Below are positions 24,577-59,339 of a stretch of DNA of 64,000 nucleotides, piece after piece. The translations under genes were made by a program, and so were the position numbers. Below the pieces are notes generated by a model. That model worked only from the letters and a program-made list of their open reading frames with translations, was not told where the DNA came from and made no database searches. The stretch's first letter is position 1. Each line of letters opens with the position of its first letter. Origin of the DNA: Medicago truncatula (taxonomy: Eukaryota; Streptophyta; Magnoliopsida; Fabales; Fabaceae); assembly GCF_003473485.1 (NCBI RefSeq), contig NC_053045.1, positions 39,158,494 through 39,222,493 of the forward strand, read 5' to 3'.

Positions 24577-24712
24577 TAAAAACATTATGTTACTATAATA
24601 TATATACATTTCATTTATCTTTCTTTGGTGCCAGTACGGCCCACATCACACCACACAACCAATTGCATCTTTCCCTTTCTGAGAAATTAGGTTTTCAACT
24701 TTTTCTTTCAAA

Positions 24713-25081
24713 GTGGTCGCCGTCCACTTTGGGCACCGTCGAACTATCCAAAAGCTTGCTTTAAAGCTTCTTGTGCAACCTTGTTCTTCCTCCTGTTGTG
24801 AGAGAAATTTGAGTACTTTCTCTTTTATCAATTCTTTGAAAAGAAACAAAATGGATCCAAAAAGGGTAGAAGATTTGGTTTATGTGCATATTAATCTTCG
24901 ACTATTGTCAAGGAAAGAAGATGGATATAAGAAAGGACAATCAAGAATGTGGGACATTAGTGGAGATGCGCATGAACCGCTTGATGGTGTTGGAATTGAG
25001 TTAGCAGAGTTGTCTTTGGATGAACCAGATTTGGAAGTTGATTTGTATCTTGATGATGGGAATGGAGGAGAGGAGATGTAA
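24713..25081 (+). pseudogene. hAT transposase C-terminal (dimerisation) fragment
   Basis: The open frame contains IQKLALKLLVQPCSSSCCER followed by NLSTFSFINSLKRNKMDPKR and VEDLVYVHINLRLLSR. This is the plant hAT dimerisation pattern (A-x-x-x-L-x-x-x-C-S-S-S-x-C-E-R-N-x-S-x-F ... K-x-x-N-x-x-x-x-x-R-x-x-D-L-V-Y-V-H-x-N-L-R-L). It then runs to an acidic tail and stops at 25081. The catalytic and BED-finger parts are absent. Whether the remnant is transcribed is unknown; ATG at 24851 would give a 76-codon peptide. Confidence 0.82.
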
Positions 25082-25438: not shown

Positions 25439-25897
25439 TATATATTTATATTAATGTGCTACGAGCCTGATTTCTTGTGTTTGTTAATATACTTGAATAT
25501 TAAAAAAATGGTTATAATTATATTGTACATTTAATTATATAATTTTTTTTATTAACGTATCACAGTCGTATCGTATCTTAATTTTTGAAATTTTTCGTAT
25601 CGGAGTATCGGTGCAGTATCGTATATGTATCGTATCTCGTATCCGGGCTCCACAGTTGTTGGCTCTTTTAACTCATGCTATGTTTGGATTGGTAAAGAGC
25701 GGTGGAATGGAGGGGGATAGAGTCATATTTCAATGTTTGGTTTTGTAAAAAATGAATGGAATGGAATGAAGTGTGATGGAAATCATTCCATCCAATACCA
25801 CTCATTTAACCAATTTTTCATTCCCCCAAATTGGAGTGTATCCAATGGAATGGAATACATTAACAGCATATTTACAATTTTAACCTTTTTTTTTCTT

Positions 25898-26420
25898 GGG
25901 TTAAATATGTTTTTGGTCCCTACATTTTACGCGATTTTGAGAATAATCCCTACATTTCAATAAATGTTTTTAAAATCCCTACATTTTTCTTTCGTTGGTG
26001 CAATTGGTCTCTGCCTTCGGTGTCATATTGATGAAACACAAGCCATCATAACAAGTTCAAACCCACCCCACCAAATCTCCACCACAACACCTTCCACACC
26101 CGCAACAGCAAACACTTTCAACGATAACATCATCGCTTTCGGCCTCCAAATCTTTCCATCTAAACCAACATATTTCACTGGAAATGTCACGAACACCGGC
26201 GATCCGCATCTACGACGTTGCGGAGAAAGACCGTGGTGAAGTTCCCCGCCGTTTTCCGGCGAGATTGAACCACCAACATTGACATCACGTTAGAAATTTG
26301 ACAACAGGGACTATTTACGCTAACGGAGGAAAAATGTAGGGATTTTAAAAACATTTATTGAAATGTAGGAACTATTCTCAAAATCGCGTAAAATGTAGGG
26401 ATCAAAAACATATTTAACCA
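25898..26420. mobile_element. Pack-MULE-like foldback with captured gene fragment
   Basis: Arms of about 85 bp: the left starts 'gggttaaatatgtttttggt', the right ends 'caaaaacatatttaacca'. Flanked by TTTTTTCTT at 25889-25897 and 26421-26429. The central part is GC-richer and carries a beta-amylase-like reading frame on the minus strand (separate entry). The ORF called on the plus strand across it is a shadow. Confidence 0.88.
26023..26292 (-). pseudogene. Captured beta-amylase (GH14) N-terminal fragment
   Basis: The minus strand is open from about 26292 to a TGA at 26025-26023 and reads GSPVFVTFPVKYVGLDGKIW, then RPKAMMLSLKVFAVAGVEG, then VVVEIWWG. This is the conserved start of the glycosyl hydrolase family 14 domain in plant beta-amylases: P-V-(F/Y)-V-x-(L/F)-P, an A-M-x-x-S-L-x-x-L/F-x-x-A-G-V-E-G-V box, then W-W-G. 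After WWG the homology ends (GFELVMMACV). The catalytic glutamates lie further on and are missing, so it cannot be an active enzyme. The match was recognised by eye. Confidence 0.8.
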
Positions 26421-26577
26421 TTTTTTCTTTCTCTCTATCATTTCTTACTCGTTCACCGTTCTCCTCATCTTCTTCAAGTACTGTTCTGCAACTAAATAAA
26501 CTATAATCTTTCAAAAAAAAAAAAAAAAAAAAACTAAATAAACTATGCTTAATAGCTAGGAAGATGGTCATTTTTAT

Positions 26578-27892: not shown

Positions 27893-28170
27893 TCTAAGAA
27901 CAAAAGCGCCATGGATGAAGCTTGAAAAGTAGAGAATGAAGAAACAGAGTGAAATGATTCGTTGACAGAAAACGGTTACAAGAGTAGCTTATATAGAAGC
28001 TTAGAGTGACACCTCATCACAATCTACTTCTAACAAACTACATGAAATGCAAATGTAAAGTAAATGAAAGTGAAATTACAATGTCAAAACCTAACTTGCG
28101 TATCAAGTAACTTCCATGTTATCCTTATCATGTGCCTGCAACTTTATCTCTTCAATGTTTTGCTCTAATA
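27893..28170 (-). repeat. 3' LTR of copia element (278 bp)
   Basis: Differs from the 5' LTR by about seven substitutions and lacks a 12-bp duplication ('ggaaaacgccat') found there. On the minus strand it begins TATTAGAGC and ends GTTCTTAGA. The plus-strand bases just inside it ('ctcccccacaag', 28171-28182) are the complement of the polypurine tract. Confidence 0.93.
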
Positions 28171-31100
28171 CTCCCCCACAAGCTAGAGGTTGGTATATAT
28201 CAATCAACCCTAGCTTGTTAACACACTCATAAAATTGGCGTGGGTTTGAAACTTTGGTAAAGACATCAGCAGTTTGATTATGTGAAGAAATAGACAATAA
28301 TCTCATAACTCCAGCTTGTAATTTTTCACGAACCAAGTGACAGTCAATGTCAAGGTGCTTTGTGCGTTCATGAAACACAGGATTGGCCGAAATATGCAAA
28401 GCACTCTGATTATCACAGTAAAGCACTGGTAATCTTGAAGGTGATTTCTGCAAATCATGAAGAAGAAAACACATCATTGTAATTCACGAGTTGCTGAAGC
28501 TAGAGCTCTATATTCAGCTTCTGCAGAGGAGCAAGAGATGGTGTTTTGTTTCTTTGATTTCCAGGACACTAGAGATTTCCCAATGAAGAAGCAGTACCCA
28601 TAAATGGATTTTCTAGTGTCTATGCACCCTTCCCGATCAGGATCACTGAACCCAAATAGTTGTAAATCTGATGATTGGGGGAAAAATAAGCCACGACCAG
28701 GTGATCTCTTAAGATATCTGAGTACTCTTAATGCAGAATAATGATGAGTAACTGTGGGAGAAGCCATAAATTGACTAAGTTGTTGTGTAGCATAGGCAAT
28801 GTCTGGTTTAGTAGTTGTGAGGTATAATAACCTACCAACCAATCTCCTATAGGCAGCAACATCATGATAAGCTGAACCTCCATCTAAGTGTAAACGTGAA
28901 GAAGGATCAAGAGGTGTACTGGCAAGTTTGCAACTGGTAGCTTAGCATCTGCTAGAAGTTCCAAGTAGTATTTTATCTGACATAGTGAAATACCTTTAGA
29001 AGAACGTGCCACTTCAATGCCAAGGAAGAATTTCAATTGGCCAAGATTCTTGATTCTAAAGGTTTGATCTAAAGCAAATTTTAATTCATCAAATTCAGAG
29101 AGAGATGTACAAGCAAGTATGATATCATCTACATACACAAGAAGTGCAGTAAAGGAAGTTGCAGTGGATTTGATGAATAAAGTGTGATCAGAGGTTGCTT
29201 GAACAAAACCCTGGGCATACAGAAATGTGGTGAGTTTCTCAAACCACTGTCTACTGGTCTGCTTAAGCCCGTATAAAGATTTAAGCAGTTTACAAACCTG
29301 TCCAGGTTTGGGAGAAGATACTCCTTGAGGTACCTTCATATACACAGTTTCATGCAATTCACCATGAATGAAAGCGTTATTAACATCCAATTGGAGAAGA
29401 TGTCAGCCATGTATGGATGCAAGAGCCAAGAGTACTCTGATAGTAGACATTTTTGCAACAGGAGAAAAGGTTTCAAAGTAATCTAAACCTTCTGTTTGAG
29501 TGTATCCTTGTGCCACAAGTCTTGCCTTGAATCTTTCAACACTACCATCAGCATGTCTCTTAATCTTGTAAACCCATTTATTACCAATAGCAACAACATC
29601 TGATGGTAAATCTACAAACTCCCAAGTGTTGTTAGCATTAAGTGCTTCAAGTTCAGTTTGCATAGCAGTTATCCAGCTGGAGTCTTGATTGGCATGATGA
29701 AAACTAGAGGGTTCTATATCATGGGAAATAGAGAGAGCATATGCTTGATGTTGTGGAGCAAGTTGGGAGTAAGACACATAATTTGTCATAGGATAAGCAG
29801 AAGAATGAAAAACATAATCTTGCAAGTGTGAAGGGGTTTTGCTAACTCTTTGTGATTTTCTAAGAGATATAGGCTCAACATTTTCATCAGCTTTATGAAG
29901 TTGTTCAACATCATCAGTGACAATATCATCTTCAGGAACATCCTCAAAAGTAGTATCTTGCATACAAACTTCTGTATCATCAGGTAACTTGGCAGACAAG
30001 TCGTGTCTGCTATCTATATAAATGTGAGTATTTGGAACATGATTCAAAGGTAAGGAATGAAATGGGAATTCCAAATCAAAGAACTTCACATTTTTGGATA
30101 CAAACACTTCAGAATTTTGAACATCAAACAAAATATAGCCCTTCATTCCTGATTTGTAACCTAGAAAAACACACTTCTTTGCTCTGGGATCAAACTTATG
30201 TCTGTTAATAGGTAAAGTGAAAGCATAATTGAAGCAACCAAACACCTTAAGTTGACTCAAATCTGGTGTTTGATTATATAAAACTTCATGAGATGACCTA
30301 TTTTGTAGAAGTTTAGTAGGTATTCTATTTAAAAGAAAAACTGCATGTAACACAGCATAAGACCATAATTTCTTAGGTAATTTTGACTGAAACAGTAAGG
30401 CTCTACTAATGTTCAATATGCGTTGGTATATTCTTTCTACCCTTCCATTTTGTTGTGGTGTATACACACAACTTCTTTTATGTATGATACCTTTCTTAGC
30501 ATAAAATTCTTTCATGAAAATTTCTGGTCCATTATCACTTCTGATGGATTTCACTTTCTTTTCAAACTGGTTTTCCACCATATAAACAAAACTTTTGATC
30601 TTTTCTGAAGCTTCTGATTTGTTTTTCATCATAACAACCCAAACATGTCTACTATAATCATCCAAAATGGTCAAAAAATATCTGAAACCATGAATAGATT
30701 CAGTAGAAAAGGGGCCCCAAATATCAACATGCACAAGATCAAACATAGCATGTGCATTATTCTTAGTGACACAAAAGGGCAATTTTCTTTATCTTGCCAT
30801 TTGACATACATCACAAGCAACATGACCACTGACAGAAATGTAACTATACATCTTATTCATATATTGCATTCTATCATGAGATAGGTGCCCAAGTCTAAGA
30901 TGCCATAAAATTCCATAAGGCACTAAACTACTAGATTCATTATTAGCAACAGAAATACTTGAAATTTTGGCTGTTTCATGGTTTTCTTCTCAGCCTTCAA
31001 GTAATAAAGTCCATCTATCTCTTCAGCCAAACCAATCTTCCTCGTATACTTCTTTTCCTGTATAATACACTGATGCCTCAAAATTCAAAATGCAGTTTTG

Positions 31101-31553
31101 TTCTTTGCACAATTTTGAGACAGATATGAGATTGACAGCAAAATCTGGTAAATATAGCACATCTTGAATATGTAAAGAATCATACAACTTCACATTTCCT
31201 CTGTGACAAGCTTCCACAATATTCTTGTTGGGTAAAGCAACACTAATTGGTTTAATTTCACTATAACTAGTGAACCAACTTAAATCATGACATGTATGGT
31301 GTGTTGCACCAGTATCAACAATCCAACTACTATCATCAATTTTGCAAATAGCATTATTGATAAAGAGTTTACCTCCAATGTTAACACTTGAGCTCTTGGT
31401 CTTCATCATGTTTGCTGAACCTTTAGCTTCAACATTGCTTCTTTCCAATAATGCAATCAAATTTTGATACTGATCCTTAGTTAGCATCATTCCACCTTCA
31501 TCATTTTTCCCAGCAGAAGTGCTTCCTTTAGATTCAACATCTTCACAATCCAC
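28103..31553 (-). pseudogene. copia pol: protease, integrase, RT and RNase H, interrupted
   Basis: Protease: WIVDTGATHHTCHD near 31290. Integrase core: LVHVDIWGPF and IRSDNGPEIF near 30740 and 30550. Reverse transcriptase: NKWVYKIKRHADGSVERFKA near 29570, [12 protein letters not shown] and [13 protein letters not shown] near 29130. RNase H: ISCSSAEAEYRALA near 28520 and ALHISANPVFHERTKHLDID near 28380. The frame is broken by a stop after protease (31023), TGA for an expected Trp at 29403-29405, a frameshift near 28920 and one near 28475, so no full polyprotein can be made. Confidence 0.93.
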
Positions 31554-31604
31554 AAAGTTAGCATTTGCAAAAGAATTTCCACCTCCTCTGCCCCAATTAG
31601 GAAG

Positions 31605-32486
31605 CTAACCATGTTTCTTGTAACATGTTTCAACTGTGTGATTAGTTCTATTACAGAAACTACACACTATGGGATTTCCTCCTCCTCTTCCTTGAAATGA
31701 ATTTCTTCTACCTCTTCCAAATTGCCTCTGACCATCCATGGCATTAACTAAGCCAGAAGTTGTATCACCCAAAGAGATAGTTGGTGATGATACTACATTA
31801 TACTGCATCTTTCTTTCTTGCTGCATAACCATAGAGAAAACCCTATTTATCTAAGGTAAAGGATCCATCAACAAAACTTGTGATGTTACTCCTTGATAAT
31901 CTTCATTCAATCCCATCAGAAACTTGATGATTATATCTTCTGCTCTAAAAGCTTTGTTATTCCTCATAGCTAAACATGTACAGGCAATTGGACAAGTACA
32001 TTGAGGCATACGCCTATATTGATCCAATTCCTCCCATAAACCTCTCAATTCTGTGAAAAACTCAGTAACTTTCTTGCTACCTTGCTTCAAATTTGCAATT
32101 TCTTCCTGCAATTGAGCTACTCTAATTCTATCTCCTCTCACGAATCTATCTTTTAGGTCATTCCACATATCAATAGCATTTTCTATAAACACTACACTTT
32201 GCGCAATTGAAGGTGAAATAGAATTGATTATCCAAGTATGAACAAGATTATTGCACCTTTCCCAAGCTGCGTAATTCAGATGATCTTCTTCAGGTATTGG
32301 TATGGATCCATCTACGAACTTGAATTTGTTCTTCATATCAAGGGCTCTTCGCATCTTCATGGACCACAGATGATGATTTTCACCAGTTAATTGTGGCGTA
32401 ACCGTAACAGTTGAAGAATTATCTGAAGAATGAACATAGTAGGGATCAAGACTTTGATCCTGATTCTGATTGTTGTTTCGCACCAT
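31605..32486 (-). pseudogene. copia gag with CCHC zinc knuckle, two in-frame stops
   Basis: Starts MVRNNNQNQDQSLDPYYVHS and contains the copia gag core (LTGENHHLWSMKMRRAL; FTELRGLWEELDQYR). A TAG at 31853-31851 interrupts it, and the same frame resumes at 31850 and reaches a zinc knuckle (CSFCNRTNHTVETC) before a second in-frame stop at 31607-31605. Reading is otherwise continuous into the protease. Confidence 0.92.
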
Positions 32487-32677
32487 AGTGTGACAAAGAT
32501 TTGATCAAAAACGAACGAAAAAATCAAGAACACAGAGAAAACTGTTCAAGTAAGAACAAAGAAATGAAAAACGCAAATTGAAGCGAATTGATGTAAAGAA
32601 AGAAGAAGAACAAACGAAGAAGATGAACTGAACAAACGTTCAATCTTCATTGTGCGGAAGCAGAGCAAGATGAACTT

Positions 32678-36252: not shown

Positions 36253-37921
36253 TTACTGAAACATGACGACACAACTTTCCAGGCATACATCTTCGAATTG
36301 GTTGCAGACATCATCCAGCTTTTCTATATCAGCTATTAAACGTCTCGAACAGTGTATATCGATCTTCCTTAAATATGGGGCATTTTTTAAGATAAACGTA
36401 ACAAATTGGATTTCATATTCATTTCCATAAAAATTTGAAAAGCATAATCGATTGAGAGAAGAATTGAAGCAACAAGGCACTGAGTTCAGTATCAAATCTT
36501 CACCATCCAAGTAGTTAAGTACCTAAACAAGAACCACTAAACAAGTCAACTGACAGAAATAATATTATGGTTAGCCATGAAAGACGGCAAAAACAAGCAC
36601 TGATGAGGAAAATAAAGCGTACCGCCGCAGGAATCTCAAGAACTTCCAATTTAGGAGTCTTTTGAAGAATGTTCATTAGTACTTCATTAGTCTTTGCAGA
36701 TATCACAGAATACACATCAAGATGTGTCAAATTGTCAAACAAAGGAAGAAGATGGAGAGTATCCTTTGTATGGTGAAGAGACTAGTAATGGAAACAAACT
36801 ATGTTCAATATTGTGAGAAAGAAAATATGCAACGATTAAAAGAAACACATAACTAAAAACAACATTTTCATTAGGCATTATCTGATGAAATACTTCACAC
36901 AGAAAGAAAAAAAAAATGAAGACGGTGAGCAAATCATCAAACATACCTCGAGAGTATCATTTGCTAGTTTGAGAGACTTGACATTGCTAAGTCCACTTAG
37001 TAGCTCAATTGCACACTTAGCAGTATATAGTTCATTAGGTGGATAGAGAAACCCAAGATCAATATCGGCATCAACTATGGAGGTCAGGTTAACAGGGATA
37101 AATTGTATTGTTGGATCACATCTGCATCTTAGATACAAAAGGTTCGGAGTATCAATCATGACTGTCATATCATCATGAATGTCTTCAGAAAGCATATTAA
37201 AACGGATGGTCAACTCCCTTAGTGTGGAAATTGCAATGTTAATGTGCATTATGTTCTCCCAAGACCAATCATGCAAAGTCAACTCTTGTAAGACAGAGCA
37301 TCCAGAAAAAAGTCGTTGAAATGACTTCTCATTTGCAAAGGTAACATCTGAAACTACTAATGTCTTTAGCTTAGGGAAATGAATACCGCTAGGAATATGA
37401 AGAGTGAAATGGAGTCCTAACCATAGTTCATTCAATGATTCAAAAGTTGAGAAACTATGGGGTAACACAAACTTATCATCTGGATGACCCAATGAAAGTT
37501 TAAGATATTGCATTTTGTGCTTCGCAGCAAAATATATTAAGGAATTAACTTTGTCTGCATCAATAACACTTTTAAATATTTGAACACAAAGCCTTTCTAC
37601 GCGATAAGATTCGTGTAGCAATCTTCCAACTAGATCTAAGAGGCTATTTTCCTTGTTTTTCTGATCCAAGAGGCTATTTTCCGTGTTGTTCTGGTTTCGG
37701 GGGTCTAAGTCATATCGAGGATGACGAAAATTAAAATCAAATGCAGATAAGTAGGTCCACAATTGTTTCCACTTCTTAGCCAATATGGAAGTTCTTACAG
37801 CATCTTTCGTAGGGAGCAATGAAAGAATATGAAGAAGAACGCCCTCGGGTAAGTTGCTAATGATATCATCCACATTATGTTTTTGGATCTTATACGCATC
37901 GGTTGAGATTGTACAAGCCAT
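36253..37921 (-). CDS. F-box/FBD/LRR protein (467 aa without distal exons)
   Basis: Exons 37921-36947, 36781-36623 and 36522-36253, all phase 0, GT-AG. The F-box is at about residues 16-60 (DDIISNLPEGVLLHILSLLP ... SILAKKWKQLW), then an Asn/Glu-rich insert with an imperfect duplication (NTENSLLDQK, NKENSLLDLV), LRR-like repeats (FPKLKTLVVSDVTF; GCSVLQELTLHDW) and a C-terminal FBD domain (LLPLFDNLTHLDVYS; SVPCCFNSSLNRLCF; CNQFEDVCLESC). It is a likely substrate adaptor of an SCF ubiquitin ligase. Exon 3 ends CAGTAA, which is a stop when unspliced but overlaps a usable GTAAAT donor, so longer isoforms using exons at 34524-34918 are possible. A 5' UTR intron acceptor ('gctggcag') precedes the ATG. 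No lesion seen. Closest paralogue: 52766-54418. Confidence 0.9.
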
Positions 37922-38021
37922 GGTCTAAACCTGCCAGCACGAAATAATAAAGCAATAAGTTGAGCCAACATTTTAAAGTATGAGTGGCATGCAATTTAGG
38001 AGGCAAGCTTTTAGCTTAATA
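37620..38021. repeat. 402-bp near-identical tract shared with 54117-54518
   Basis: The two tracts differ at one site (cgg/cag near 37909) over the first roughly 300 coding bases, the start codon and the adjacent leader, while sequence on both sides diverges by about 10 percent or more. This pattern suggests gene conversion or a recent local exchange. Confidence 0.85.
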
Positions 38022-40799: not shown

Positions 40800-42075
40800 A
40801 AATCTTAGTAACTTGTGGTTAAGAACACGTAGGAACTCCAAAAAAAAATACTCCCTCCGTTTTTAACATAATATTTTTTTTTGTATTGGAAGAAGACAAA
40901 ACAAGTTCTTCCACTCTCTCTCTTCGTTGACGAAGCCAAAATGAGTTACTCATCTAGCTACTGCCATTGCACTGTTGATGCTGCTGATGAGGTTTGGACT
41001 TCTAACCACCTAAGTTTTTCCCATTTTATTTATGATTAGGCTCTCTAATTTGACCAACATTTTCTTCCGTAACGTCTTTAATTACCTTCCATAAGTATTT
41101 TGCTGTTGTTTCCATCAACACCGTGGATCTTCATTTCGTTTTGTGGAATTTGGATCTGATACTTCAAATCTTGTTTAACCATTCAAGTTCATGCTATATT
41201 TCTTTTCAATTTCTGGCCACTGTATCACTTCATCATGTTTCTTTTTTCAGCTCATACTATCGCTTCTTCTAGTGTTTCTTTGTCATTAATTATATCTTGA
41301 ATGTAAAATGTTAGTAATTGGTTTTTAGATTAGTTTTTTTTTTCTCTCCCTATTCCAGGTTTGAACTAGAACTATGAACCACAAACACTCCTCATATTAG
41401 GTGTGTCCTGGTGTCGAACACGCATCGGTGTCCGACACCAACACCGACATGACACCTATGATTACACTGAATTATGTCATTTTCTCAAATTATTATAAGT
41501 GTCGATGTGCCTGTGTCGTGTCTTGTGTCCGTGTATGTTCTTCATAAATTCCATTTCTTTTGTTCAACCAAATGATGGTTTGAAGATTACAAAGTTTGAA
41601 ACCGACTCCTGGTCTGCTACTGACACAACACCGACACATGTGAATTATGTCATTTTCTCAGATTATGATTGGGATGTCGATGTGTCGGTGTCCATGTCGT
41701 ATATGTGCCGTGCGTGGATTACAACTTTCATTTTTCAGCTTTGACCGAGTCAAATAGGCGCCATCTTGTGATAATAAATTCCAGAATCAGTGGTTGATAA
41801 TAACTGAGCACATGTTTTGGATTAACACCAAATAAAATTCAACCCTTTCTCTGTTGGGGAGATTCTGGCATATGTTGATGTTAATTAACATGTGCATTTT
41901 TGGATATTTTTTATTTTTATTTTTTTTAAAATAAATTAGTTTTTAACATCTGTTCTTTCCTCTTAAATCTCAACATTTTATAATTATCTAATTTTCCTTG
42001 CATAGCAGACTTTCAGCTTCACAGCAACGGTGCAAAATACATCATCCTCAGCAAGTTAGTTTTGGCTTTTACAAT
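40800..42075. other. Upstream region of the TNL gene, repeat-bearing
   Basis: A solitary 'ctccctccgtttttaac' half-element lies at about 40853. A short ORF from 40941 (MSYSSSYCHCTVDAADEV) may be a 5' leader exon or chance. Between 41400 and 41745 are two diverged copies of a 'gtgtcgatgtg...gtgtcggtgtcc' repeat. Confidence 0.45.
41400..41745. repeat. Diverged direct repeats rich in 'gtgtcg/cgacac'
   Basis: The blocks 'gaattatgtcattttctca' at about 41470 and 41641 are each followed by 'gtcgatgtg' and 'gtgtc' clusters, and each preceded by 'accgacac/accgacatg'. Related text recurs near 12165 and 12770, so this is an interspersed repeat. Confidence 0.6.
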
Positions 42076-42079
42076 TGCA

Positions 42080-45000
42080 ATGACAATGGCTTGTAATAGC
42101 ATCCGAAGTATCTCTTCACCTAAGATGAAATGGAAATATGATGTGTTTGTGAGCTTTAGAGGTGGCGACACACGCAACAATTTCACTGATCACCTTTTTG
42201 GCACTCTCCATAAAAAAGGCATTGTTACCTTCAGGGATGATACAAAGCTCAAGAAAGGGGAAAATATATCATCTGAGCTTCTACAAGCTATTGAAGGATC
42301 CCGTATTTTGATTGTTATCTTTTCAAGGAACTATGCTTCTTCAACGTGGTGCTTGAAGGAACTAGTAAAGATTGCTGAATGCATTGAAGTAACAGGACAA
42401 ATTGTTCTACCTATTTTCTATGATGTGGATCCATCTGAGGTGCGAAAGCAAAGCGGAGATTATGAAAAAGCCTTTAGGGATCATGAAGAAAGATTCAAAG
42501 GAAATTTAGAGAAAGTGCAAAGATGGAGAGGAGCCCTAGCACAAGTAGCCGAACTCTCTGGTTGGGATGTAAGGGATCAGTAAGTAGTCTTTTCTATGTT
42601 TGCAACAAGTCGATCATAACTTTTTAAGTTTATAAGTAAAACTTAAACTCTTCCATTGATTTTTTTTTTGAAACAGCAAAATTTTATTGATAACCACTTA
42701 GTCTAAAACAAAAGCACATAATTTTTGGTTCTTGAATTGTTTTATCAATTAATTTTTGTTTGGGGTTGTTGTGTGATGATTTGGTATTTCTATCCTCTGG
42801 TCTTTTAGGCCACAATATGCAGAGATTGGAAAAATTATTAAAGAGGTAACATGCTTATTGAGTCACAAATCTTCAACTTTACCTAACGATATAGTTGGGA
42901 TGCACTCACGAGTCGAAGAATTAGAAAAGCTTTTGATTATGGACTCAGATGATGATGTTCGAGTGGTAGGGATTTGTGGAATGGGTGGAATAGGGAAGAC
43001 TACTCTTGCTACTGCTTTGTATGATAGAATCTCTAATCAATTTGATGCTTGCTGCTTTATTGAGGATGTAAGTAAAATTTACGGAGACCATGGCCCGATT
43101 GGAGTGCAAAAGCAACTTCTTTGTCAAACTCTAAATGAAGAAAATCTTCAGATATGCAATCTTTTCATGGCATCTAATCTGATACGCACTAGGCTATGTC
43201 AAATAAAATCCCTTATAGTTCTTGATAATGTTGATCAAGTTGAACAACTGGATAAATTGGCTATGACACGAGAATGGCTAGGCACAGGGAGTAGAATCAT
43301 CATAATTTCTAGAGATGTTCATATCTTGAGAGAGCATGGAGTAGATGAAGTGTACAAAGTTCGACTCTTGGATCATAATAATGCCCTTCAATTGTTTTGT
43401 AGGAAGGCTTTCAAGAGTGATGATATCATGAGCGGTTACATATACTTGACAGATGATGCACTAACATATGCCAATGGCCTTCCATTAGCAATTAAAGTTT
43501 TGGGCTCATTTTTGTATGGCCGAGATGTCTCTGAATGGAGAAGTGCATTGGCAAGGTTAAGAGAAAACCCAAGGACAGATATTATGGATGTACTTCGAAT
43601 TAGTTTTGATGGACTAGAGGATACAGAAAAGGATATATTTTTAGATATTGCTTGTTTCTTTTATAAAAAATCGGAGACATACGTGAATAAAGTTTTAGAT
43701 TTTCGTGGATTTCATCCTGAAATTGGTTTAAGAGTTCTTGTTGATAAGTCATTCATAACCTGTGAGAACGGGAGAATTTTTATGCATGATTTGTTCAAAG
43801 AACTAGGCAAGAGTATCGTTAGGGAAAAATCACCCAAAGAACCAAGAAAGTGGAACAGGATGTGGGACTACAAGGATGTCCACAATGTTATATCAGAAAA
43901 CATGGTAAAATAGTTATTAAAATAAGATTATTGCTTACCATTTTTCTATATCGATTAATAACCTCAAAGTATCTATCGTTTTTAATGTCATTTGCAATAC
44001 TGTAGGCAACATCAAACCTTGAAGCCATAGTTCTGAGGCGTTATCCAGAAAATATTGAAGAAATACAGGGGATGACAACATTGAGAACTGAAGCTTTAGC
44101 ACAAATGAGTCGCCTTAAATTGCTCATGCTGTGGAATTTGAATTTCTCAGGAAGTCTCAATTTTCTTTCTAGTCATTTGGGGTATCTCTGTTGGGATAAA
44201 TATCCTTTCACTTGTTTGCCATCAAGTTTCCAGCCGGATAAACTTGTTGAACTGGTCCTACCTCGTAGCAACATCAGGCAACTATGGGAGGGCACAAAGG
44301 TAATATAAACATGGTTATGAGCCTTTGTTTATCTTTTTCTGATGAACACATAAGAAGTGTTTATCTCTTAATATTCCTTCTTTCACTACAGTTAGTTAAA
44401 TAAATGAATTAAAGTTTAAATATGATTATTAATTTTTCTCTTTCCATTTATCATTGTCTGCAGTGTTTACATAATTTGACACATATTGATCTCTCTCACT
44501 CGGAAAATCTTATCATGATGCCCGATTTCTTGGAGATTCCAAATCTTGAGTTGCTAGATCTTGAAGGATGTATAAAACTCCAGCAGATCGATCCATCCAT
44601 TGGTATCTTAAGAAGGCTTTCCAAATTAAATTTGAAAAATTGTAGAAATCTGGTAAGTATTCCTAGCAATATTTTTGGTCTGAGTTCTCTCAAACATCTA
44701 AATCTCTCAGGCTGTCCAAATTTACTTAATAATAAGATGTTAGAGAGACAAAGGCAAAATGAACATTTGGAGATGCTTGATATTAAAGAATGTACTACTC
44801 AATACCAACCAACATCCTTCATCTACAAAGTTCTAAAGCCGCACTTTCCATTTTCTTTTTTTCGAAAACGCGAAGATTCGGTTGGTTTATTGTTGCCTTC
44901 GTTGTCTTGTCTGTCATGTCTGCAATATCTTGACCTAAGTTTCTGCAATCTTTTTCAAATCCCTAATGCAATTGGAAGGCTACATTGCTTAGAAATTCTA

Positions 45001-52765: not shown

Positions 52766-54418
52766 TTACCAAAACTTGATGGCACAACTTTCCAGGCATA
52801 CATCTTCCAATTGGTTGCGGGCATCATCCAGCTTCTCCATATCAGCTGATAAACGTCTCGAACAGTGTATATTGATCTCCTCTAAATATGGGGCATTTTT
52901 TAAGATAAACGTAACGAATTGGATTTCATATTCATTTCCATAAAAATTTAAAAAGGATAATCGACTGAGAGAAGATTTGAAACAGCAAGGAACTGAGTTC
53001 AATATCAAATCTTCGCTATCCAAGTAGTTAAGTACCTAAATAAGAACCATTCAACAAGTCAATTGACAAAAATAATATTATTGTTAGTCTTGAACATGGC
53101 AAATACAAACACCGACGCAGAGAATAAAACGTACCACCCTAGGAATCTCAAGAACTTCCAATTTAGGAGTCTTTCGAAGGATGTGCATCAGTACTTCATT
53201 AGTGTTCTCGGGACTCCAAGAATACACATTAAGATGTGTCAAATTGTCAAATGAAGGAAGGAGATGGAGAGTATCCTTTGTATGGTAAAGACACTAGTAA
53301 TGGAAACAAAACTATGTTCAGTATTGAGAGAAAGAAAATATGCAATGGTTATAAGAAACACATAACTAAAAACAACATTCTCATAGGCAGTATCGTATGC
53401 AATACTTAAAAAAAAAAAGAAATGAAGATGATAGGCAAATAGTGTAACATACCTCAAGAGTATCATTAGCTAGTTTGAGAGACTTGACATTGCTAAGTCC
53501 ACTCAGTAGCTCAATTGCACACTGAGAAGCAAATACTTCATCAGGTGGAAACAAATTAATATCTGCATCAACTATGGAGGTAAGGTTAACAGGGATACAT
53601 TCTATTGTTGGATCACATGAACATATTAAGGATATAAGATTCGCAGCATCAATCTTGAATGTACAACCATGATCATAATCTACACAATCAAAGTCAAAAT
53701 GGACGGTCAACTTCCTTAATGTGGAAATTGCAACGCTAATCTGCATTATGTTCTCCCAAGACCAATCATACAAAGACAACTCTTGTAAGACTGGACACCC
53801 AGAAAAAAGACGTTGAACTGACTTCTCATTTGCAAAGGTAACATCTGAAACTACTAAGTTCTTTAGCTTAGGGAAATGAATACCATTAGGAATATGCAGA
53901 GTGAATTTGAGGTTTAAATGCAGTTCATTCAATGACTCGAAAGCTGGGAAACTATGTGGTAACACAAACTTATCATTTGGATGACCTAGTGAAAGTTTAA
54001 GATATTGCATTTTGTGCTTTGCAACAGAAGATATTAAGGAACTAACTTTGTCTGCATCAATAACACTTCTAAATATTTGAACACAAAGCCTTTCTACGCG
54101 GTTAGATTTTTGCAGTAATCTTCCAACTAGATCTAAGAGGCTATTTTCCTTGTTTTTCTGATCCAAGAGGCTATTTTCCGTGTTGTTCTGGTTTCGGGGG
54201 TCTAAGTCATATCGAGGATGACGAAAATTAAAATCAAATGCAGATAAGTAGGTCCACAATTGTTTCCACTTCTTAGCCAATATGGAAGTTCTTACAGCAT
54301 CTTTCGTAGGGAGCAATGAAAGAATATGAAGAAGAACGCCCTCGGGTAAGTTGCTAATGATATCATCCACATTATGTTTTTGGATCTTATACGCATCAGT
54401 TGAGATTGTACAAGCCAT
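52766..54418 (-). CDS. F-box/FBD/LRR protein (464 aa without distal exons)
   Basis: Exons 54418-53453, 53293-53135 and 53035-52766, all phase 0; exons 2 and 3 have the same lengths as in the paralogue at 36253-37921. F-box at about residues 16-60 (DDIISNLPEGVLLHILSLLP), the same ENSLLD duplication, LRR-like repeats (FPKLKNLVVSDVTFANEKS; GCPVLQELSLYDWSWEN), and an FBD domain (LLPSFDNLTHLNVYSWSPEN; SVPCCFKSSLSRLSF; ARNQLEDVCLESC). Likely an SCF adaptor. Unspliced, exon 3 ends TGG TAA; a GTAAAT donor overlaps that stop, allowing the acidic extension at 51170-51537. No lesion is visible. The N-terminal third is almost identical to the paralogue while the rest has diverged. Confidence 0.9.
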
Positions 54419-54518
54419 GGTCTAAACCTGCCAGCACGAAATAATAAAGCAATAAGTTGAGCCAACATTTTAAAGTATGAGTGGCATGCAATTTAGGAGG
54501 CAAGCTTTTAGCTTAATA
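54117..54518. repeat. 402-bp near-identical tract shared with 37620-38021
   Basis: Partner of the tract described at 37620-38021; it covers the F-box coding region, ATG and the end of the leader intron. Confidence 0.85.

Positions 54519-57458: not shown

Positions 57459-59339
<1,881 letters not shown>

Follow-up and report, generated by a model that had tools for sequence, protein, structure and literature searches.

A beta-amylase gene fragment carried by a family of MITE-sized, probably Pack-MULE-derived elements in Medicago truncatula

Pack-MULEs were described in rice (Jiang et al. 2004, as cited in PMC13317346 and PMC10004981), and the same two papers review their possible role as a reservoir of small RNAs. 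A second system is the maize Zm-Pack-PIF cluster #18, reported as 72 Pack-TYPE copies with a mean length of 535 bp and one captured gene piece of 163 bp (PMC8903248). In Medicago truncatula itself, the MuTAnT elements are described as short foldback derivatives of MULEs, present in 218 copies, with AT-rich targets, 9-nt duplications where these are visible, and a putative autonomous element of 4,873 bp (PMC4486113). Within the single literature library searched, no title or abstract opening named the family reported here, and none paired beta-amylase with Pack-MULEs.

The locus lies in a stretch of 64,000 nucleotides of M. truncatula DNA, hereafter the window, in which positions 25898-26420 are occupied by a 523-bp element containing a piece of a beta-amylase gene. 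Comparison with the rest of the genome (430 million bases in 42 contigs) indicates that this is almost certainly a Mutator-like element of MITE size, non-autonomous and with a Pack-MULE as its ancestor.

Structure of the element and its dispersed copies

The element is bounded on both sides by a perfect 9-bp duplication, TTTTTTCTT, read directly at 25889-25897 and at 26421-26429; all nine positions agreed when the target site duplication of this copy (L061) was recomputed. The left terminal inverted repeat (25898-26013, plus strand) begins GGGTTAAATATG, a terminus conserved across the family, whilst the right one (26305-26420, minus strand) finishes CATATTTAACCA, the family consensus having C instead of A at the last base. 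Excluding the outermost base at each end, the arms (25899-26013 and 26305-26419) are 115 bp long and 90% complementary. An earlier note, made from the letters of the window alone, had recognised the inverted arms and the exact duplication, but put the arms at about 85 bp. It had also described a GC-richer centre, open on the minus strand; this centre has a GC content of 47%, against 33% for the whole window (51% for the core and 34% for the arms in the family consensus), and an 88-aa stop-free, beta-amylase-like frame at 26023-26289 on that strand contains both of the peptides quoted in the note. The residues following the tripeptide MAC in this frame are not in the frame of the donor gene discussed below.

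The note called the element a 'foldback transposon'. In the strict sense, Foldback (FB) elements have arms made of arrays of short tandem repeats, and the left arm here, with three CCCTACATTT-type sub-repeats spaced at around 30 bp, does not amount to such an array; a MULE-type MITE is a better description.

The note had proposed looking for further copies, and these are numerous. A genome-wide search with a 30-base core pattern, permitting up to three mismatches, recovered at least 66 of them, the donor gene being the 67th match; the same search returned no matches in the control. Sixty-three full-length copies were used for the alignment, the tree, and the counts of duplications and frames, after setting aside L059, which is rearranged, L099, which is truncated, and L048 (C2:22658981). 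The last was considered as a long progenitor, its left end lying 2.6 kb from the core, and this was rejected: it is read as an interrupted copy because its 56-bp left end and the remainder are separated by about 2.4 kb. All but one of the aligned copies are between 521 and 536 bp in length, the exception being 500 bp. Short, numerous, uniform in length and lacking a transposase, they conform to the definition of a MITE.

Target duplications agree at nine of nine positions in 54 of the 63 copies, at eight in six, at seven in one and at three in two, whereas exchanging right flanks between copies gave nine of nine in only 1.6% of cases. The duplicated sequences are 95% A+T, and they provide indirect evidence that the family has been mobile. 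Pairwise differences average 6.5% and range from 0 to 12%; 15 copies, the window copy among them, form a group in which the mean difference is 1.2%, which we read as a recent burst.

Two other mobile elements were observed close by: a remnant of the dimerisation region of a hAT transposase at 24683-25081 on the plus strand (E = 1e-5), roughly 0.8 kb from the element, and, some 1.7 kb away, a Copia-type retrotransposon spread over several frames at 28103-32504 on the minus strand, in which one scanned frame has both integrase and reverse transcriptase domains. Further along the window is a TIR-NB-ARC disease resistance-type gene at 41984-43913 on the plus strand (Pfam TIR E = 2.4e-52; NB-ARC E = 2.8e-28), which continues to around 45905 with leucine-rich repeats downstream, as judged by eye. 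On either side of it is an F-box/LRR frame (36878-37924 and 53381-54421, minus strand); these two lie about 16.5 kb apart, appear very similar by eye and are probably the result of a duplication. A polyubiquitin gene at 57459-58841 on the minus strand comprises six ubiquitin units arranged head to tail within a single open frame.

Origin of the beta-amylase sequence

When the translated centre was compared with PDB sequences using phmmer, the top match was Beta-amylase 1 (E = 8.3e-8); of the 23 matches listed at E values up to 1, every one was a beta-amylase. GH14 was the sole Pfam match to the centre, under the cut-off (E = 0.019; 14.4 bits against a threshold of 27), and covered only positions 4-43 of the 402 in the profile. 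The GH14 relationship proposed in the note is hence significant by the phmmer comparison, as it is by the DNA match described next, whilst the complete catalytic domain of a functional beta-amylase is absent.

A beta-amylase gene of the same genome, on C8, matches the element at 84% identity over 231 bp with one gap (E = 9e-71), and in a second block 21 of 21 bases are exact; it was this DNA match that decided the beta-amylase assignment. The centre of the element derives from exon 1 of the C8 beta-amylase (GH14) gene, where the undeleted parental exon, for which the note had suggested a search, is still present. The family consensus is identical to the donor at 248 of 267 aligned bases across C8:46386387-46386739, and differs from it by the loss of 32 bases, the replacement of 47 bases by five, and the loss of a further 12. 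In the window copy these changes delimit four donor blocks, all on the minus strand. The first, at 26014-26037, corresponds to C8:46386387-46386410, and is followed by the absence of the 32 adjoining donor bases; the second, at 26038-26058, to C8:46386443-46386463, beyond which the 47 adjoining bases have become five; the third, at 26064-26241, to C8:46386511-46386688, containing the start of the GH14 domain and adjoined by the 12 absent bases; and the fourth, at 26242-26274, to C8:46386701-46386733. The 12 bases are retained in three copies (L051, L073 and L079), and therefore the losses came stepwise.

The genome contains 39 GH14 matches, which we grouped into about ten gene places. Close DNA comparison covered 30 of these stretches, the beta-amylase place at C5:10.79 Mb being left out, and among the 30 only those of the C8 gene gave a close match. 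No rival donor emerged from the core-pattern search, nor from the best 40 of 69 candidates in a genome-wide search with the donor DNA, which were the donor itself, one place on C6 and copies of the MITE.

Termini, transposase and longer relatives

The 31-base terminus of the element occurs, within one mismatch, at 165 places in the genome (85 + 80). Among the first 100 places listed were two exact copies in convergent orientation, C2:51190095 and C2:51194887, a distance of 4,793 bp end to end, and between them is a MULE transposase domain (Pfam E = 9.1e-12; 45.7 bits against a cut-off of 27.6). This evidence comes from 351 bp in the middle of the 4.8-kb stretch, and covers the domain rather than the whole gene. 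NCBIfam gave a weak IS256 transposase match to the same stretch, below cut-off. An identical 75-aa stretch of transposase, without stops, is found at two further places, C4:23575084 and C4:55167232, where the open frames run to 485 and 564 codons respectively. An exact terminus among the first 100 places listed lies roughly 2.1 kb from each (C4:23572935 and C4:55169580-55169610, respectively), although both termini of a transposase-encoding stretch were seen at the C2 place alone. The candidate places were not among the best 150 of the 923 candidates from a search for the transposase family PF10551. A stretch at C3:24059200 (L112) that looked MULE-like by eye was dropped, having no Pfam match.

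The target duplications of around 9 bp, the long terminal inverted repeats, and the ends held in common with the MULE transposase-encoding stretch at C2:51190095-51194887 are the marks by which the family is placed amongst the MULEs. As these ends are shared, the C2 transposase, or a close relative, may bind to them and so mobilise the short copies in trans.

The same ends also surround longer pieces of the donor. A 1,270-bp element at C6:29243532-29244801 (L107), with ends that resemble the MITE consensus at 88% and 91% and a 9-bp duplication, AAGAATAAA, on both sides, contains blocks of the donor from between C8:46386286 and C8:46386890. These include the region of the start codon and exon 1 and, as judged by eye, the beginning of the first intron, a reading based on the point at which the donor frame ceases to resemble other beta-amylases. 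A second stretch of this element is 83% like C1:34292080-34292243 (within L109, C1:34291800-34292600), and is probably a second captured piece, which would make the cargo composite. Two further elements have the same ends and the 5' part of the donor with other deletions: one at around C4:12862930-12863605, where the A-rich flanks leave the duplication unreadable, and one extending from C1:9071558, the right end of which is incomplete.

With a host gene fragment between MULE ends and no transposase, such an arrangement is that of a Pack-MULE, and in its structure the C6 element shows us this stage. It is a sister of the MITE rather than its parent, because 36 donor bases are absent from it and 24 of these survive in the MITE. 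From the existence of longer relatives with the same ends, it follows that a longer element most likely took up the donor piece as genomic DNA, and that the several shorter forms most likely arose from internal deletion. The earlier note had proposed a capture event, and the cargo does come from a host gene, that on C8; however, the capture did not occur at the window locus, since the copy there is one of at least 66, and the cargo entered a longer ancestor that was later shortened.

Possible silencing and selection, and comparison with known systems

The note had also suggested that small RNAs against the parent gene could result. A further proposal is that hairpin RNAs transcribed from the copies give rise to small RNAs that target the donor beta-amylase gene in trans. 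Consistent with this, RNA from the plus strand of the element in the window could form a long hairpin, its fold being far better than those of 100 shuffled versions (z = -17.7), and every one of the 63 full-length copies shares between 11 and 48 different exact 21-mers with the donor locus, the window copy having 28 positions at which such 21-mers match, whilst the copies share none with the compared loci of six other GH14 genes. There is also an excess of C-to-T changes, at 1.66 events per site in CG, 1.61 in CHG and 1.04 in CHH contexts, compared with 0.19 per AT site for A-to-G and T-to-C changes together, as expected of methylated sequence. However, such an excess of C-to-T changes could also arise without small RNAs, and shared 21-mers follow from an identity of about 90%. 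Hence an action of small RNAs on the donor is possible, though we think it unlikely. Less likely again is that the family, as dozens of hairpin-forming copies with perfect 21-mers to one beta-amylase gene, constitutes a dispersed trans-silencing reservoir; were this true, host silencing of a transposon would be tied to the expression of a starch metabolism gene, and accessions that differ in the number of copies would differ in expression of the donor.

It is also conceivable, albeit very improbable, that selection maintains the captured frame as a small protein or as part of a chimeric one. In 59 of the 63 full-length copies the frame stays open across both diagnostic peptides, and the 47-for-5 and 12-bp losses preserve it. 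In the amylase part, omitting the tail after MAC, there are four stops against 10.1 expected from the spectrum of changes across the whole element (P = 0.025), or 12.5 from that of the arms (P = 0.004). Set against this, the changes on the copy tree number 164 altering an amino acid, 66 silent and nine producing stops, where 163, 64 and 12.5 respectively are expected for the same total from the whole-element spectrum, a neutral ratio of changing to silent substitutions (P = 0.44, or 0.21 when the spectrum is that of the arms). Changes are spread over the codon positions as 78, 80 and 81 (88, 74 and 77 expected), and the rate per site is 0.89 in the frame and 0.91 in the arms. With the tail included, the nine stops, five of which fall within the last six codons, outside the donor frame, compare with 12.5 expected (P = 0.19), or with 15.7 from the arm spectrum (P = 0.045). 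Furthermore, the 88-aa frame has no start codon upstream of the conserved GSPVFV part, the 32-bp loss shifts the frame past MAC, and eight of the 63 copies have a 2-bp insertion near its N terminal end. As the stop test was split post hoc and stop-prone sites are few, we continue to favour drift in a young family over selection, yet the deficit of stops speaks against pure neutrality. A deficit of stops that is not accompanied by one of amino acid changes was noted as perhaps reflecting uneven mutation at tryptophan codons.

That the sequence is an ordinary beta-amylase exon or pseudogene of this locus, surrounded by inverted repeats by chance, can be dismissed despite the clear GH14 similarity of its frame, given that the same ends recur in at least 66 dispersed copies, almost all of them flanked by 9-bp duplications that differ in sequence, that none of the 39 genomic GH14 matches falls within the window, and that the undeleted exon belongs to the C8 gene. 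The preferred reading is thus the Mutator-like MITE, the copies of which would be silenced and methylated; the 88-aa frame is probably a passenger rather than a gene, and would be mostly drifting.

Systems of this kind are already known, and the beta-amylase-carrying family is a new example. It offers an unusually complete case history from a single genome, comprising the donor, a Pack-MULE form of greater length, derivatives with partial deletions, a MITE amplified into several sequence groups, and a matching source of transposase. It thereby illustrates the passage from a gene-capturing MULE to a MITE through internal deletion, and provides a concrete target for testing the feedback of a captured fragment on its donor gene.

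Compared by description, the family resembles the MuTAnTs in consisting of short foldback MULE derivatives with AT-rich targets and 9-nt duplications; MuTAnTs differ in that most of them lie in TA microsatellites, and no captured gene is mentioned in the results section of their description (PMC4486113). As in rice Pack-MULEs (PMC13317346, PMC10004981), MULE-type ends surround host gene fragments, probably composite in the C6 element, the donor gene is still present, and the element's own transposase is absent from the sequence read. Unlike those described from rice, the amplified form here is MITE-sized, at about 523 bp, and carries a single captured fragment, shortened by internal deletions, in at least 66 copies. 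In size, copy number and architecture the family is nearly equal to Zm-Pack-PIF cluster #18 as reported in PMC8903248; that cluster belongs to the PIF superfamily in maize, whereas the elements described here are of Mutator type and from another plant.
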